A DNA stretch of 64,000 nucleotides from Chloroflexota bacterium (GTDB taxonomy: Bacteria; Chloroflexota; Dehalococcoidia; Lucifugimonadales; Lucifugimonadaceae), in contig JABIFF010000016.1 in NCBI GenBank assembly GCA_018650845.1, positions 1 to 64,000 on the forward strand, given 5' to 3'. This document shows, in pieces, positions 2,715 to 29,868 of the stretch. The position numbers and the translations under genes are program-made. Position 1 is the stretch's first letter. Each line of letters begins with the position of its first letter. The notes under the pieces are model-generated. The model worked only from the letters and a program-made list of their open reading frames with translations, did no database searches and was not told the origin of the DNA.

Positions 2715-4523
2715 TTAGGTTGACGCTGGCGGTGGTTCGATCTCGTTTCGCGCCTGTTCATAATCGGCTCGACGATCTTCGAGATAGGTTGGGATAGGAA
2801 CGTCCCACCAGCCCACAACGGTACTTCCAGAATTTGGGAAGTCACGGGCCACTTTTACTTCGACTAACGAAGGTCCATCGTGTTCGAGCGCACGATTTAC
2901 AGCTGCCTGAATATCGGCCGGCTTATCGACCGATTCTGAGTACAAGCCGAAGCCTTTAGCGATTGCTACGAAATCGGGTGATTTGCTGTCGTCCCAATCG
3001 GTAGCCATCGCACGGTCTTCGCCAAATTCTGCCATCTGAAGGTCACGAATCGAGTACCAGCCGTAGTTGTTCAGCAGCACTACAACTACGTTGATTCCGT
3101 ATTCCATTGCAGTTGCCATTTCCTGCATCGTCATCATGAAATCGCCATCGCCAATTACGGCAACCACCTGCTTCTCGGGAGCTGCTAATTTGGCTCCTAG
3201 CGCAGCCGGGTATGCCCAGCCCATAGTTGAAAAACCACCTGAGGTGAGATTGGTTTTGGGTTCGTAGAACGGGAATTCGAGCACGCATGCCTGAGCATGA
3301 CCGGACGAGGTGACGACTATTGCATCACGATCCAGAGTTTCTCTTAGTTCTTTGTAGAAGCGCGGAACGGTTGACGGAATGGCTTCTGATTCGCGTAATT
3401 CTGCTGTTTCGTCGAGCCATGTTTGGCGTAGTTCTTGGATATCGGCAAAGTAGTCGGTTGCTTCGTAATTCGGAGTGTGTTCTTGCTGAACAAGCTCGGA
3501 ATTGATCACTGAAATTACTTGCGTGGCGTCGCCTTGGATGCCAAGTTCTAGTTCGTAGTTTTTTCCAAGTTCTCGTGAATCGATATCGATTTGTATGAGC
3601 TTGGTCGCGTCGGTTGCGAACGTTGTGTTTGCGCGGAACGACGAAGCGACCTGGTCGGTAAATCGAGTGCCTACAGCCAAAATAACGTCAGCTGAAGTTG
3701 TCAGTGCGTTTCCGATTGATGTGCCTTTTGTACCGAGATGCCAGCCGTATAGCGGGTGATCTTCAGGGAAGCATCCCTTGCCTTGAAGGGTTGTGACGAC
3801 TGCTGCACCGGTTCGTTCAGCGAGTTCGAGCAAGGACGGTTCTGCGTTTGCGAGAGTAACTCCGCCACCCGCGACGATTACGGGGCGTGATGCCGCTGCG
3901 AGTAGATCAGCTGCTGCCTCACTTGCTGCCAGAGCTTCGGTCGATAATTCTTCAGATTTTCCAGAACTTGTTGGTATGGGATCGGGAACTTCATCTGATT
4001 CAGCTTGAACATCCATCGGGAGGCTCACGAAGGTGGGGCCAGGTCGACCCGTCGTCATCTGCTGAAATGCGTCGGCAAGATCATCGTGTAACGCCTTTTG
4101 TGAACGAGGGCGATAGCTTGCTTTTACGAGCGGTTCGAGAACGGATGGCACATCGGCAGGGCGTTTTCGTTCGAGTTCCTGAAGAACTCCTCGTCCTTCC
4201 ATGTATGTATGGGTCTCGCCAGAAATCACGAGTGCTGCAGTTGAATCGACGTAGCTTGCGCCTAGTCCGATGGCGGTGTTGAGCGCTCCGGGGCCTATAG
4301 AAGTGAATACAGCTAGTGGCTTTCCTGAAACACGGTAAAAACCATCGGCGAGATGAACTGCGCTTTGTTCGTGACGAACTTGAAGAATCTTTATTTGATC
4401 TTGAACCGTGCGGAATGCGTCGATCATGGCAACGATGCCGTGTCCGGGAATGCCGACTAGATACGGTACTTCTTCAGCGAGAAGTCGGTCTCGAACTATT
4501 TCGCCACCGGTTCGATTCGTCAC
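2715..4523 (-). CDS. Thiamine-pyrophosphate enzyme, acetolactate-synthase-like
   Basis: 602 aa with the three-domain layout of the TPP decarboxylase/acetolactate synthase superfamily: pyrimidine-binding domain (about 1-170, with HEQ at 51-53 holding the cofactor-activating Glu52), central domain (about 195-325) and PP-binding domain (about 380-560). The GDG...NN thiamine-diphosphate motif starts at 458 and ends at NN485-486. It is cytoplasmic. It is not linked to an ilvN-type small subunit or other branched-chain genes, and the sequence diverges from classical IlvB, so a catabolic decarboxylase/ligase of 2-oxo acids (for example a sulfoacetaldehyde, glyoxylate or oxalyl type) is as possible. 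The substrate cannot be fixed from sequence. Confidence 0.85.
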   Translation of the reverse strand: MTNRTGGEIVRDRLLAEEVPYLVGIPGHGIVAMIDAFRTVQDQIKILQVRHEQSAVHLADGFYRVSGKPLAVFTSIGPGALNTAIGLGASYVDSTAALVISGETHTYMEGRGVLQELERKRPADVPSVLEPLVKASYRPRSQKALHDDLADAFQQMTTGRPGPTFVSLPMDVQAESDEVPDPIPTSSGKSEELSTEALAASEAAADLLAAASRPVIVAGGGVTLANAEPSLLELAERTGAAVVTTLQGKGCFPEDHPLYGWHLGTKGTSIGNALTTSADVILAVGTRFTDQVASSFRANTTFATDATKLIQIDIDSRELGKNYELELGIQGDATQVISVINSELVQQEHTPNYEATDYFADIQELRQTWLDETAELRESEAIPSTVPRFYKELRETLDRDAIVVTSSGHAQACVLEFPFYEPKTNLTSGGFSTMGWAYPAALGAKLAAPEKQVVAVIGDGDFMMTMQEMATAMEYGINVVVVLLNNYGWYSIRDLQMAEFGEDRAMATDWDDSKSPDFVAIAKGFGLYSESVDKPADIQAAVNRALEHDGPSLVEVKVARDFPNSGSTVVGWWDVPIPTYLEDRRADYEQARNEIEPPPAST

Positions 4524-4658
4524 TTGGTGTAATCCTCACCCAATATTTATATAGGCCGATTGCCACTCTGCAGCAACAACGTTCATTCTGAACATATCGG
4601 TCGGTACACTTGTTGGTACGTGAGCCGCAATCGTACCGGCTAAAAGGGCTGAAAGTTT

Positions 4659-5075
4659 TTGCCACAGGGTGCAAAACATAAATTGAAGCGAACGATTTCA
4701 TCGTTCGTTATTAGCTTTGCCCCTCTTTTGATGGTTATCGGACTGATGGCGCCAGTATTTGGCCCAGCTGTAGACCACCACTACGTCGATCGATCTCCCG
4801 CCCACGCTCACGTATTTGTTGGTGAAGATACAAACCTTCACGAGCACTCGTTGGTCAATCACGACCACGCTGCGGGCGAAACCACTAGCGACGGAATATC
4901 GGTTGCTAGCTCATCTGCTTCTTCGGCTCACGGCCCACTAACGTTAGATGGTGCCACTCTTGAGTCGTCGATCCCGAATTTCGACACCCATCTGGTCGCA
5001 ATTTATGTTGGAGAACCCCCTGTCCCCGACAATCAGGCGATCGCTCCCCTAGATAGACCTCCACGTCGCGTCTAA
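4659..5075 (+). CDS. Small His-rich exported or membrane-anchored protein, probable metal handling
   Basis: 138 aa from a TTG at 4659 with AAAAGGG about 11 bp upstream. A basic N-terminus is followed by one hydrophobic segment (about residues 13-36), then a periplasmic-type stretch rich in histidine (DHHYVD, HAHVF, HEHSLVNHDH), typical of metal-binding accessory proteins. No named family recognised. It is the first gene of a same-strand group with a cupredoxin-like protein and a CopC-CopD fusion, so a role as copper chaperone or sensor in the periplasm is a reasonable guess. The gene start is uncertain. Confidence 0.6.
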   Translation: MPQGAKHKLKRTISSFVISFAPLLMVIGLMAPVFGPAVDHHYVDRSPAHAHVFVGEDTNLHEHSLVNHDHAAGETTSDGISVASSSASSAHGPLTLDGATLESSIPNFDTHLVAIYVGEPPVPDNQAIAPLDRPPRRV

Positions 5076-25971: not shown

Positions 25972-26547
25972 ATGGGCATACTGCTGCACGAACAACTTGA
26001 GACTGAACGAACTCGCCTCACGCCTTTAACAGGTGAAATAGCCGATGCAATGATGGCTAGCGATGGCGAATCGTTGCTTTCGGAATCGCGCCTCAAGTTT
26101 CCTCAACCGTTCCAAGTGCCGCCCATGATGCACGACGACTACTTGCAAGCTGTTTCGCAGCGGTTGCAGTACGAGCCGGGGCAGGTTGGCTGGTGGGGCT
26201 GGCTGTTCTACGAGAAGGAATCTCGAAACGTGCTTGGCACGGTTGGTGTGAGTGGTCCTCCTGATGACACCGGATCAGTCGGAATTGCATTCTCTATTTA
26301 CGAAGACCAAGAGAACAATGGCTACACCAAAGAGGCGACAAAAGCTGTTGTCGATTGGATTCTGGCTCAAGAGGGTGTGAAGTCACTTCGAATGACCATT
26401 CATCCTAAGAATTTTGCCGCCGTTCGAGTCGCCCAGCACTCCAAATTCGAACTCAAGGGAACTGTTGTCGACAATGTTGTTGGCGAAGTTCACCTTTACG
26501 AGGCGAAGAAGCGAGTGATTCTTCCGCCGCCTTCTGCCTTGGTTTAG
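25972..26547 (+). CDS. GNAT family N-acetyltransferase
   Basis: 191 aa. RimJ/RimL-like acetyltransferase: ETERTRLTPLTG start, a core VGIAFSIYEDQENNGYTKEATKAVVDW with the acetyl-CoA binding region in beta-4/alpha-3, and the LRMTIHPKNFAAVRVAQHSKFEL motif that closes the fold. Cytoplasmic. Acetylates an amine on a small molecule or a protein N-terminus; substrate unknown. Confidence 0.87.
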   Translation: MGILLHEQLETERTRLTPLTGEIADAMMASDGESLLSESRLKFPQPFQVPPMMHDDYLQAVSQRLQYEPGQVGWWGWLFYEKESRNVLGTVGVSGPPDDTGSVGIAFSIYEDQENNGYTKEATKAVVDWILAQEGVKSLRMTIHPKNFAAVRVAQHSKFELKGTVVDNVVGEVHLYEAKKRVILPPPSALV

Positions 26548-26691: not shown

Positions 26692-27093
26692 TTGACCGAT
26701 AAGCCTGTTGAAACCTCAGAAGTTAAGTTTGAATCGACCGGGAAGAAGAAGCGCGAGACTCGACCCTGGGGTTCGTACGAAGTGCTTACGAGTGGCCCTG
26801 GGTTCCAGACTAAGCGTTTGACTGTGAAGGCAGAAAAGCGACTTTCGCTGCAGTGGCACCGTCATCGTGACGAAACTTGGGTTGTTGCCCGTGGCACAGC
26901 CGAAGTAACCGTTGGCGAAGAACAGCACACACTGGGCCGTGGAGAGACGATGTTTGTCGCTCGCAACATTCACCATCGCATCGCAAACATCTCATCTGTA
27001 GAGCCGCTTGAAATCATTGAGATTCAGACTGGCGACTATCTTGGCGAAGACGATATCGTTCGGGTAGAAGACGACTTCGGCAGGGCTGAATAG
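26692..27093 (+). CDS. Cupin, type II phosphomannose isomerase/ManC C-terminal-like
   Basis: 133 aa from TTG 26692 with TGGAGAA just before. The sequence RPWGSYEVL...FQTKRLTVKAEKRLSLQWHRHRDETWVVARGTAEVTVGE is the C-terminal cupin of bifunctional mannose-1-phosphate guanylyltransferase/phosphomannose isomerase, with metal ligands in HRHRDE, a Glu and a His in NIHHRIAN. Only this domain is present; no nucleotidyltransferase half is linked. It would interconvert fructose-6-P and mannose-6-P if active alone. The same strand group leads to the putative selenoprotein after 124 bp. Confidence 0.82.
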   Translation: MTDKPVETSEVKFESTGKKKRETRPWGSYEVLTSGPGFQTKRLTVKAEKRLSLQWHRHRDETWVVARGTAEVTVGEEQHTLGRGETMFVARNIHHRIANISSVEPLEIIEIQTGDYLGEDDIVRVEDDFGRAE

Positions 27094-27217
27094 GATGCTC
27101 ACGCTGCATCTGTCGGGTATAGTGCCGCATCTCAAGGGTGGCGGAACAAACGCCACCTGATGTTCGACAGATTTTGTTGGTAGCTAGTTTTGGCGTCCAA
27201 CGATGGAGAGATACTCG

Positions 27218-27688
27218 ATGGGCCAGCTTCTAGTAGACGATCAATTTCCAGATATCGAGTTGTCGATTGCCGGCGGCGGCACTGTATCGCTTCCGGGCGA
27301 TACCGCTGGCAACTGGACGTATGTGCTGTTCTATCGTGGAGGCTGGTGACCGTACTGTACTCGGCAGTTAGCCGATGTAGAAGAATGGTTTGAGCGACTC
27401 CAAGAGTTTGATATCAAAATCGTCGCTGGAAACGCAGATGGTGATTCCGATACTGTCCAGACACACGCTGATCACGATCTATCGTTCCCTATAGCGCATA
27501 GCGTTCCTGTGGAAATCGGTGAGAAGATTGGCGCTTGGATTGGCGAGCGGCAGGGCAAGGCGATGATTCAGCCGTGTGAGTTCGTGCTGAGACCCGATGG
27601 AACTGTTGCTGCTTCGATGTACGCGACGACTCAGCTAGGGCGAATGTTGCCTGAGGCGATCTGGAACTTTGTAAAAGCGAGAATATAG
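27218..27688 (+). CDS. Probable selenocysteine-containing peroxiredoxin-like (AhpC/TSA) protein
   Basis: One frame from ATG 27218 (GGAG 9 bp upstream) to TAG 27686-27688 encodes 156 residues if the in-frame TGA at 27347-27349 is read as Sec. It then reads FYRGGW-U44-PYCTRQL, the peroxiredoxin/thioredoxin-like catalytic loop in which the family has Cys (C-P-Y-C). Sec44 and Cys47 would form a U-x-x-C redox pair. Downstream of the TGA the frame stays open for 112 codons with conserved family features (DIKIVAGNADG, FPIAHSVPVEIGEKIG, FVLRPDGTV). A hairpin right after the TGA fits a bacterial SECIS. Likely a thiol/selenol peroxidase or reductase in the cytoplasm. A gene broken by a stop is the alternative. 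selA, selB, selC and selD are not in the window. Confidence 0.78.
27358..27379 (+). promoter_or_regulatory. Candidate bacterial SECIS hairpin
   Basis: Within the coding sequence, TACTCGGC (27358-27365) pairs with GCCGA-(T bulge)-GTA (27371-27379) around the five-base loop AGTTA (27366-27370). Sixteen bases separate the TGA from the loop, and the second loop base is G. Both features match the general bacterial SECIS pattern (short distance, G among the first two loop bases), which SelB recognises to insert selenocysteine. Pairing was done by hand, not by folding software. Confidence 0.65.
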
Positions 27689-27829: not shown

Positions 27830-29443
27830 ATGACTACTGATCACAATACCGACCGTATAGCCGATGTTCTAATCATTGGCGCTGGTGCATCTGGAGCTGC
27901 AGTCGCTGCTTCGCTAGCTGAGGCAGTATTCGATGTGGTTTGCATCGAGCAAGGCCACTGGCAAGACGCTTCCAAATTCCCTACAACCGAGCCGGATTAC
28001 GAGCTGAGGCGTATGAGTTCGTGGTCGATCAACCCGAACAAGAGGAAGCTGCCCGAAGACTATCCAGTAAACGTCAACGACTCAGCGATCGAGCCGGTGA
28101 TGTTCAATGGGGTTGGCGGAAGCACGATTTTGTGGGCGGCGCACACGCCACGATTACATCCCTCTGATTTCAAAGTTAAAACGCTTGATGGCGTAGCTGA
28201 TGACTGGCCGATTTCGTATGAAGATCTCGAGCCGTGGTACGACCTTAACGACCATGTAATGGGTTGCGCAGGAATCGCCGGAGATCCGGCTAACCCGCCT
28301 CGTTCGCCACGTCAGATGCCTCCTGTTCCATTGGGCAACGACGGTGAAATGTTGGCTGGTGCTTTTGATCGACTCGGGTGGCATTGGTGGCCTTCCGATA
28401 ACTACGTCAACACGACCCGCTATGGCGAAGGTCGTGATGCGTGCAACTTCTGTGGTCACAATATGATGGGCTGCTACCAACGGGCAAAATCATCGACTGA
28501 TCTGAACTACTGGCCGCGTGCTATCGATCAGGGAGCAGAGCTTGTAACCGGTGCTCGCGTACGAGAAATAACCACCGATTCGGCGGGCAAAGCAACCGGC
28601 GTGAATTATCTCGATAGAGAAGGCAATGATCAGCATCGACAAGCTCGGGCTGTGGTGGTTGCTGCGAACGGTGTTGGTACTCCGCGAATGCTTCTGATGT
28701 CGGCTTCGGAAAAACACCCAAACGGATTAGCCAACTCTTCAGGGATGGTCGGTAAAAACCTGATGTTCCACGTGTACGCCGGTGTCACCGGTGTGTTCCC
28801 TGATCATGAAGAGCCGTGGGTTGGACCTGCCGCCAATATGATCATGTCGCAGGAGTTTTACGAGACTGATTCCGATCGGGGATTCCTTCGAGGTTACTCG
28901 TATCAAACAGGTCGAGGGCAAGGGCCGGGATCAGTCGCACGAGGAGCCAATGTTCCGTGGGGTGCCGATCATCACAAGCAACTGGAACGACGCTTGGGCA
29001 ATACTGTCGGGCTTGGTGCGATTGGCGATGATCTGCCCGAGGAGCACAACACCGTCACGCTTGATGATCGCTTAGTCGATAGTTCTGGTCTTCCCGCTCC
29101 AAAAATAACTTACAGAGTGAGCAAGAATTCACGAGCGCTTCTCGATCATTCACTTGTGCAAGGCCAAAAGCTGCTAAAAGAAGCTGGCGCTGAAGAGGTC
29201 GACGTAAATCGATTCTCACGAGAGGCTGGCTGGCACCTGATGGGCACGGCTCGAATGGGTGATGATCCAGAGCGATCTGTAGTCGATAGCAACGGGCAAT
29301 CTCACGATATCGACAATCTTTTCATCGTCGATGGAAGTGTTTTCGTTACCGGTGGTGCTGTGAATCCGACGCCGACTATTCAGGCCATCGCTCTTCGTAC
29401 TGCTGATTACATCGCAACTCACCGTCAGGATTTGAAAGCTTGA
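27830..29443 (+). CDS. GMC family oxidoreductase (FAD-dependent dehydrogenase)
   Basis: 537 aa. FAD-binding GAGASG at 17-22 (G-A-G-x-x-G), a middle Cys-rich segment (CNFCGHNMMGC) and the GMC C-terminal domain with catalytic H469 (WHLMGTARMG) and N512 (NPTPTIQAIALR). Family members oxidise alcohols or sugars such as gluconate, glucose or choline. The next gene overlaps by ATGA and encodes a gluconate-2-dehydrogenase subunit 3-like protein, so this is the large catalytic subunit of a periplasmic-type dehydrogenase; however no twin-arginine leader is seen at either start. Electron acceptor subunit (cytochrome c) not in the window. Confidence 0.92.
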   Translation: MTTDHNTDRIADVLIIGAGASGAAVAASLAEAVFDVVCIEQGHWQDASKFPTTEPDYELRRMSSWSINPNKRKLPEDYPVNVNDSAIEPVMFNGVGGSTILWAAHTPRLHPSDFKVKTLDGVADDWPISYEDLEPWYDLNDHVMGCAGIAGDPANPPRSPRQMPPVPLGNDGEMLAGAFDRLGWHWWPSDNYVNTTRYGEGRDACNFCGHNMMGCYQRAKSSTDLNYWPRAIDQGAELVTGARVREITTDSAGKATGVNYLDREGNDQHRQARAVVVAANGVGTPRMLLMSASEKHPNGLANSSGMVGKNLMFHVYAGVTGVFPDHEEPWVGPAANMIMSQEFYETDSDRGFLRGYSYQTGRGQGPGSVARGANVPWGADHHKQLERRLGNTVGLGAIGDDLPEEHNTVTLDDRLVDSSGLPAPKITYRVSKNSRALLDHSLVQGQKLLKEAGAEEVDVNRFSREAGWHLMGTARMGDDPERSVVDSNGQSHDIDNLFIVDGSVFVTGGAVNPTPTIQAIALRTADYIATHRQDLKA

Positions 29444-29868
29444 TGACAACTAATCTTGATACCAATCTCCTTTCTGCGGCACTGGATCGGGTTCTTCCAC
29501 CAGTCGACGATCTAGCCGGCGCGGGCGCTATGGGGCTCGCAGAGGTGGTTGTAGAACGATCACGAGCAGACGATCGGTTCTGGGATGCGCTGTCGACCGT
29601 AATGAACGCATTGTCTGTTGGCGAGTTTTTATCTGAGGACGGAGACGGACAGGACGGCGCTATTCGCGCTGTGGAAAGTTCCGACCCAAATGCATTCACG
29701 CTCTGGCTAGATGTCGTTTACTCGATCTACTACATGCAGCCGGAAGTACACAAGCGATTGGGTTGGCATGGTCGTGCACCGCAGCCCGAGGGAAACTCGA
29801 TGCCGCCGTGGGACGAATCTATCCTCAGCAATATTCGCAAACGCGAACCGTTCTGGCGCAAGGTTTAG
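29440..29868 (+). CDS. Gluconate 2-dehydrogenase subunit 3-like protein
   Basis: 142 aa, ATG overlapping the stop of the GMC gene (ATGA), so translationally coupled. The pattern LLSAALDRVLPPVDDLAGAGAMGLAE at the start and the FTLWLDVVYSIYYMQPEVHKRLGWHGRAPQPEGNSMPPWD end are typical of the small subunit that accompanies GMC dehydrogenases and helps folding or export. Helical, soluble. No Tat signal is visible, unlike classical members. Confidence 0.82.
   Translation: MMTTNLDTNLLSAALDRVLPPVDDLAGAGAMGLAEVVVERSRADDRFWDALSTVMNALSVGEFLSEDGDGQDGAIRAVESSDPNAFTLWLDVVYSIYYMQPEVHKRLGWHGRAPQPEGNSMPPWDESILSNIRKREPFWRKV

Follow-up and report, generated by a model that had tools for sequence, protein, structure and literature searches.

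The window, a 64,000-nucleotide stretch of DNA from a Chloroflexota bacterium, carries on its forward strand at positions 27218-27688 a single frame of 156 codons that is interrupted solely by a TGA at 27347-27349. The TGA is codon 44 and is followed by 112 further codons and a final TAG. A Shine-Dalgarno-like GGAGAG (27205-27210, forward strand) lies 7 bases upstream of the ATG at 27218, and a second in-frame ATG occurs at 27203. The sequence-only reading, which had proposed a candidate peroxiredoxin-like selenoprotein here, had described this frame, the place of its TGA and the ribosome site in the same terms, and each of these was confirmed. Translated through the TGA, the 156-residue product matches the AhpC/TSA domain (PF00578, E 1.1e-19, 71 bits against a cut-off of 26) and contains the motif FYRGGW-U-PYC, whose predicted active-site segment UPYC is encoded at 27347-27358. 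In the stretch 3' of the TGA the other two frames are closed by 7 stops (frame +1) and 8 stops (frame +2). Standard gene calling had been expected to miss or split such a gene. Accordingly, the peroxiredoxin-like gene is missing from a table-11 list of the window's open reading frames of 80 amino acids or more, which means that ordinary gene calling would drop or truncate it, and in two relatives (L039 and L040) a same-strand listing with a floor of 100 amino acids shows only a 103-residue piece 3' of the TGA. When the 64-kb window was scanned by coding score for TGA codons that are read through, this gene was the sole result, but the scan run for TAG and TAA over the whole contig yielded four or more candidates lying in the window and resembling 5' extensions or joined neighbouring genes, so it is not specific and counts as weak evidence.

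Pfam analysis of the window proteins identified two co-directional genes upstream on the forward strand, encoding a GNAT acetyltransferase (25972-26547) and a mannose-6-phosphate-isomerase-type cupin (26692-27093), and comparison of the reading-frame lists by eye found this order kept in the two relatives L039 and L040. Between the peroxiredoxin-like gene and an enolase-superfamily gene, positions 27830-29868 hold a GMC oxidoreductase gene and then a 142-residue reading frame with no Pfam match; both are absent at the corresponding place in L039 and L040. A link of the peroxiredoxin-like gene to the GMC oxidoreductase was rejected, since the two adjoin in the window and not in these relatives. 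PADLOC returned nothing, and neither did Rfam applied to the window at its gathering threshold.

An ordinary nonsense mutation, in a pseudogene or through a sequencing error, would also produce the broken frame that a table-11 gene caller sees, and the source assembly is fragmented (2,477,300 bases in 24 contigs, 87% complete), but the conservation of the TGA argues strongly against such an origin. We searched 60 genomes, the organism's own (G000) and 59 relatives, and found matches to the protein in 41 of them. At E <= 1e-20 there were 26 matches, 23 with exactly one TGA, the other three being a copy with serine at the Sec position and two partial matches. TAA or TAG was present in two of the weaker matches: the one in G018 is a remnant, and the one in G001, a weak match, combines two TGA with a single TAA. 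Among 23 extracted loci, 21 including the window cover the motif (L029 and L031 match the C-terminal part only and stand outside the TGA count), and in all 21 (the window plus 20 relatives) the TGA occupies the identical column, within WUxYC; in none has it moved to another position. Two public contigs of Chloroflexi bacterium also carry the gene and were not counted in addition to G009 and G007. The codons beyond the TGA tell the same way: over 109 codons, eight relatives were compared with the window, and dN/dS was 0.02-0.17 in the six comparisons that allowed dS to be computed, ratios that are rough because dS is near saturation. Judged by these ratios, the codons 3' of the TGA are under purifying selection. 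With the covarying hairpin described below, we regard a nonsense mutation as having next to no chance of being the right explanation.

A wider search of 400 genomes of the phylum gave a match at 1e-10 in 25. Besides the window's own locus there were 27 loci, 18 of which were extracted; those left out (L087-L094 and L098) have one TGA each. A second group in the phylum carries FYRGHWUSHC in 10 of the 10 loci read. Five homologues of the FYRGxWCPxC type have cysteine at the TGA column, with CPYC in G412, G376, G418 and G106 and CPFC in G335. In an alignment of 25 protein sequences, from which L011 and L019 are absent, the invariant positions are P26, R40, G41, W43, U/C44, C47, L51, Q118, G141 and R142; both columns of the UxxC/CxxC pair are thus invariant in 25 of 25 when Sec is counted as Cys, the one tandem copy that begins with serine lying outside the alignment. 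That copy, WSPYC in G027, directly follows its Sec copy: locus L070 (G027:C43:44000-52000) holds at about 3914-4918 a UPYC Sec copy and then, head to tail, the WSPYC copy, an apparent replacement of Sec by Ser beside the Sec form. A tree was built from 35 rows (27 Sec, 7 Cys and 1 Ser; L019, L029, L031, L078, L080, L082, L083 and L084 are not included); its labels require four changes, the well-supported branches force three changes for Sec, and the Ser copy clusters with two Sec copies. Elsewhere among the relatives, runs of three adjoining peroxiredoxin-type matches with one TGA each, at G019:C1:2060314-2062077 and G028:C35:229296-230830, are possible tandem selenoprotein clusters. The remnant in G018 (G018:C56:183191-183316, L035) is the C-terminal part of a peroxiredoxin-like gene placed right after the TAG of a leucyl-tRNA synthetase-like frame; as a paralogue with UGYC in the organism's own genome follows a leucyl-tRNA synthetase-like gene on contig C9, L035 may have been left by a deletion.

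Directly 3' of the TGA the RNA is predicted to fold into a bacterial SECIS hairpin (27348-27390, forward strand), a structure that the sequence-only reading had also pointed out, with a G in its loop 16 bases after the TGA. Its core, UCGGC-AGUUA-GCCGA (27361-27375), pairs an upper stem of 27361-27365 with 27371-27375 around the apical loop AGUUA, which begins after 16 bases from the TGA and has its G at 27367. The published bacterial SECIS model, as given in the excerpt of a 2026 review used here, has a loop of 3-9 nt, an upper stem of 4-16 bp, a G in loop position 1 or 2, a UGA-to-loop distance of 16-37 nt and a minimum free energy of -7.5 or below (PMC13188914). The hairpin falls within all of these limits, with a loop of 5 nt, a stem of 5 bp, G second in the loop and followed by U, a spacing of 16 nt and -14.0 kcal/mol on 42 nt. 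A 45-base fold reached -17 kcal/mol (z -4.0), a stability equalled by one shuffle in 200, and only 4 of 500 synonymous recodings were as stable as the hairpin of the window (best 0.8%). The same comparison with recodings favoured the hairpin at <=0.05 in 14 of the 21 loci; in the other seven (L014, L019, L021, L022, L023, L025 and L030) it was no better than recodings at 0.05.

Covariation of the stem was assessed on 29 distinct TGA segments, four identical segments having been dropped. Paired cells amounted to 93.8% against 78.9 ± 1.9 in shuffles, cells changed on both sides numbered 20 against 6.0 ± 2.5, and the covariation score of 0.430 exceeded all 500 shuffles (0.161 ± 0.025), versions slid along the alignment giving at most 0.080. 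Two of the five measures fell within the shuffles, namely pairs changed on both sides (2, attained in 279 of 500 shuffles) and further pair types (7, attained in 59 of 500). Pair 18-26 is instructive: it joins the third, silent position of an Arg codon to the second position of an Ala codon, and in four sequences both positions have changed, replacing G-C by A-U or U-A and turning the Ala into Val or Asp. The same pair is broken in 6 of the 29 sequences, four of them from the UGYC clade, in three of whose members a shifted register of 3 bp with the loop AGUU is predicted; pair 16-28 is broken in 3 of 29. Stability and covariation thus lend support to a functional SECIS element.

The genome also encodes the components needed to read such a signal, all four selenocysteine genes having been found even though the assembly is incomplete: a tRNA-Sec (66.4 bits, confirmed by ARAGORN with anticodon TCA, that is UCA), SelA on contig C6 (E 3.3e-155), SelB on C13 (E 1.4e-98) and SelD on C21 (E 2.2e-110), whose gene has its own TGA in CAGUAGK. 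The tRNA-Sec appears in two copies of equal score, at the end of C3 (G000:C3, 107167-107260) and the start of C17 (5-98), which may be a single gene at an assembly overlap. A further match to tRNA-Sec of about 50 bits in this genome was identified by ARAGORN as tRNA-Ser, so matches near 50 bits are unsafe. Among the 60 genomes SelA was over the cut-off in 53, all but G022, G023, G024, G026, G032, G033 and G052; SelB was likewise over the cut-off in 53, in a different set, being present in G026 and not in G056. Homologues bearing the TGA were found in 31 of the 53 genomes with SelA (the own genome included) against none of the seven without it (Fisher p 0.004, relatedness ignored), the latter figure being weaker than it looks since only two of those seven genomes have any match at all. 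Across PF00578 more broadly, 26 of 56 matches in five Sec genomes contain one TGA against 0 of 12 in G023 and G024, where neither SelA nor SelB is over the cut-off (p 0.0015), and for DSBA matches the figures are 9 of 10 against 0 of 3 (p 0.014), both Fisher values ignoring relatedness. Inside the 68 PF00578 matches of these seven genomes, TAA or TAG occurs in none.

These observations bear equally on a reassigned code, in which UGA would be decoded as an amino acid other than selenocysteine. The UGA-decoding tRNA that was found is tRNA-Sec, the remaining Sec machinery accompanies it, the column is Cys in the homologues, the other genes inspected in this genome have their UGA at Cys-type active sites, and two relatives of the gene, L017 and L021, themselves terminate in TGA; we therefore consider reassignment scarcely credible. 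The reading that we prefer, and to which we assign a probability of about 97% on the strength of sequence comparisons, is that the gene truly encodes a bacterial selenoprotein, with Sec as residue 44 of a product that is probably a peroxiredoxin-like oxidoreductase or peroxidase.

We found nine credible selenoprotein genes in the organism's own genome, the peroxiredoxin-like gene and eight more on contigs C5, C6, C9, C17 and C21. Contig C9 holds the UGYC paralogue, a peroxiredoxin-type protein with TGGU and a PrdB/GrdB-like protein with IUPVC (GRDB model 37.8 bits, cut-off 22; PrdB model under its cut-off), C5 a peroxiredoxin-domain protein with AYWUTFC, C17 and C21 the DSBA proteins with UPWV and USHC, respectively, C6 a UINC protein whose C-terminal part is long and C21 also SelD. 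PF02627 had no match in this genome. A codon-score scan of C5 and C9 (371 kb) gave 11 TGA candidates, five of which we accept as credible since their TGA falls in a Cys-type motif; the remaining six lack such a motif, and most of them resemble 5' extensions, a sort of candidate that the scan also yields for TAG and TAA. A rough extrapolation from five in 15% of the assembly yields about 30 selenoproteins, an estimate biased upward because C5 and C9 were picked for holding matches. With nine credible genes the genome surpasses the published threshold of six for a selenoprotein-rich organism, as stated in excerpts of two surveys (PMC5029168, PMC1794560). In the same excerpts, the 2016 survey places most selenoprotein-rich organisms in Deltaproteobacteria, Clostridia and Synergistetes, and its main text does not contain the word Chloroflexi (PMC5029168); the 2006 survey gives 3 selenoproteins for Chloroflexi (PMC1794560). 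NCBIfam includes a family of Rcas_1661 thioredoxin-like (seleno)lipoproteins, and we claim no novelty for selenoproteins of Chloroflexota as such. On balance we lean towards a selenoprotein-rich lineage, with at least nine and perhaps a few tens of such genes in about 2.5 Mb, several peroxiredoxin- and thioredoxin-like Sec families, and among them a FYRGxWUxxC subfamily that has Sec at a non-peroxidatic position, has switched among Sec, Cys and Ser and lacks a curated model in NCBIfam.

The sequence-only reading had placed the TGA at the peroxidatic, catalytic cysteine of FYRGGW-x-PYC. The cysteine column itself is supported by the Cys homologues, but profile alignment to solved peroxiredoxins sets C47, the predicted resolving cysteine, on the peroxidatic Cys and U44 on the Thr of TxxC, so the label peroxidatic is off by three residues. 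In the same alignment R40 falls on the Pro of the motif, and the Arg of ARxVF is replaced by P119. With Sec first in UxxC, at the Thr place of a true peroxiredoxin, the protein is best described as a peroxiredoxin-like UxxC oxidoreductase; the canonical peroxiredoxin and PrxU signature, PxxxTxxC(U) with a catalytic Arg, is absent, and the PrxU model scores 30.7 bits against a cut-off of 270. Canonical chemistry, with C47 attacking the peroxide and Sec44 merely assisting or resolving, would suit the PF00578 match, the rank of peroxiredoxins as the top-scoring solved relatives and the alignment of C47 with their peroxidatic Cys; the three substituted motif positions, the low PrxU score and the presence on C9 of a separate TGGU peroxiredoxin-type gene make it, in our judgement, an improbable account. 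A structure prediction from three sequences was poor (mean pLDDT 49).

In the selenoprotein reading, SelB with Sec-tRNA-Sec would bind the hairpin just 3' of the UGA and the ribosome would insert Sec at residue 44, as the machinery and the conserved element suggest. Given the invariant UxxC in an AhpC/TSA fold, the product would be a small peroxiredoxin-like thiol:disulfide oxidoreductase or peroxidase, in which the Sec selenolate may attack a peroxide or a disulfide, C47 may form a selenenylsulfide in resolving it, and a reductant of the thioredoxin type could regenerate the enzyme. The locus is a well-supported case of a gene lost by ordinary annotation, it adds a subfamily without an NCBIfam model over the cut-off, and its naturally occurring Sec, Cys and Ser variants lend themselves to comparing what is gained from selenium.

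Other bacteria were already known to have peroxiredoxin-like UxxC selenoproteins, which have appeared in the literature since 2005 or earlier. In the excerpts considered, the Sargasso Sea paper describes peroxiredoxin-like selenoproteins with a thioredoxin-like UXXC instead of TXXU (PMC1088965), the GOS paper lists Prx-like 1 (pfam00578, UxxC) (PMC2398784) and the 2026 review lists a Prx-like thiol:disulfide oxidoreductase (PMC13188914). With these, as excerpted, the protein described here has in common the AhpC/TSA fold, a Sec-first UxxC, a bacterial SECIS and Cys homologues; it differs in that neither the protein, nor its paralogue, nor a Cys homologue reached the cut-off of any NCBIfam model, and the likeness of the FYRGxWUxxC subfamily to the published proteins is one of description. 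The Sec-type peroxiredoxin (TxxU; NCBIfam PrxU) shares the fold and the place of the active-site motif, but here Sec occupies the Thr position, Cys is kept at the peroxidatic position, and the Pro and Arg positions differ. A SelL-related redox protein (NF040769) matched weakly around the motif, at 13.9 bits far under the cut-off of 120. The peroxiredoxin-like AhpC/TSA family cd02970 presumably has a motif of the YRGxWCPxC type like that of our protein. In contrast to the UxxS form of cd02970 in the review excerpt (PMC13188914), to which the comparison is again by description, the protein encoded in the window has UxxC.
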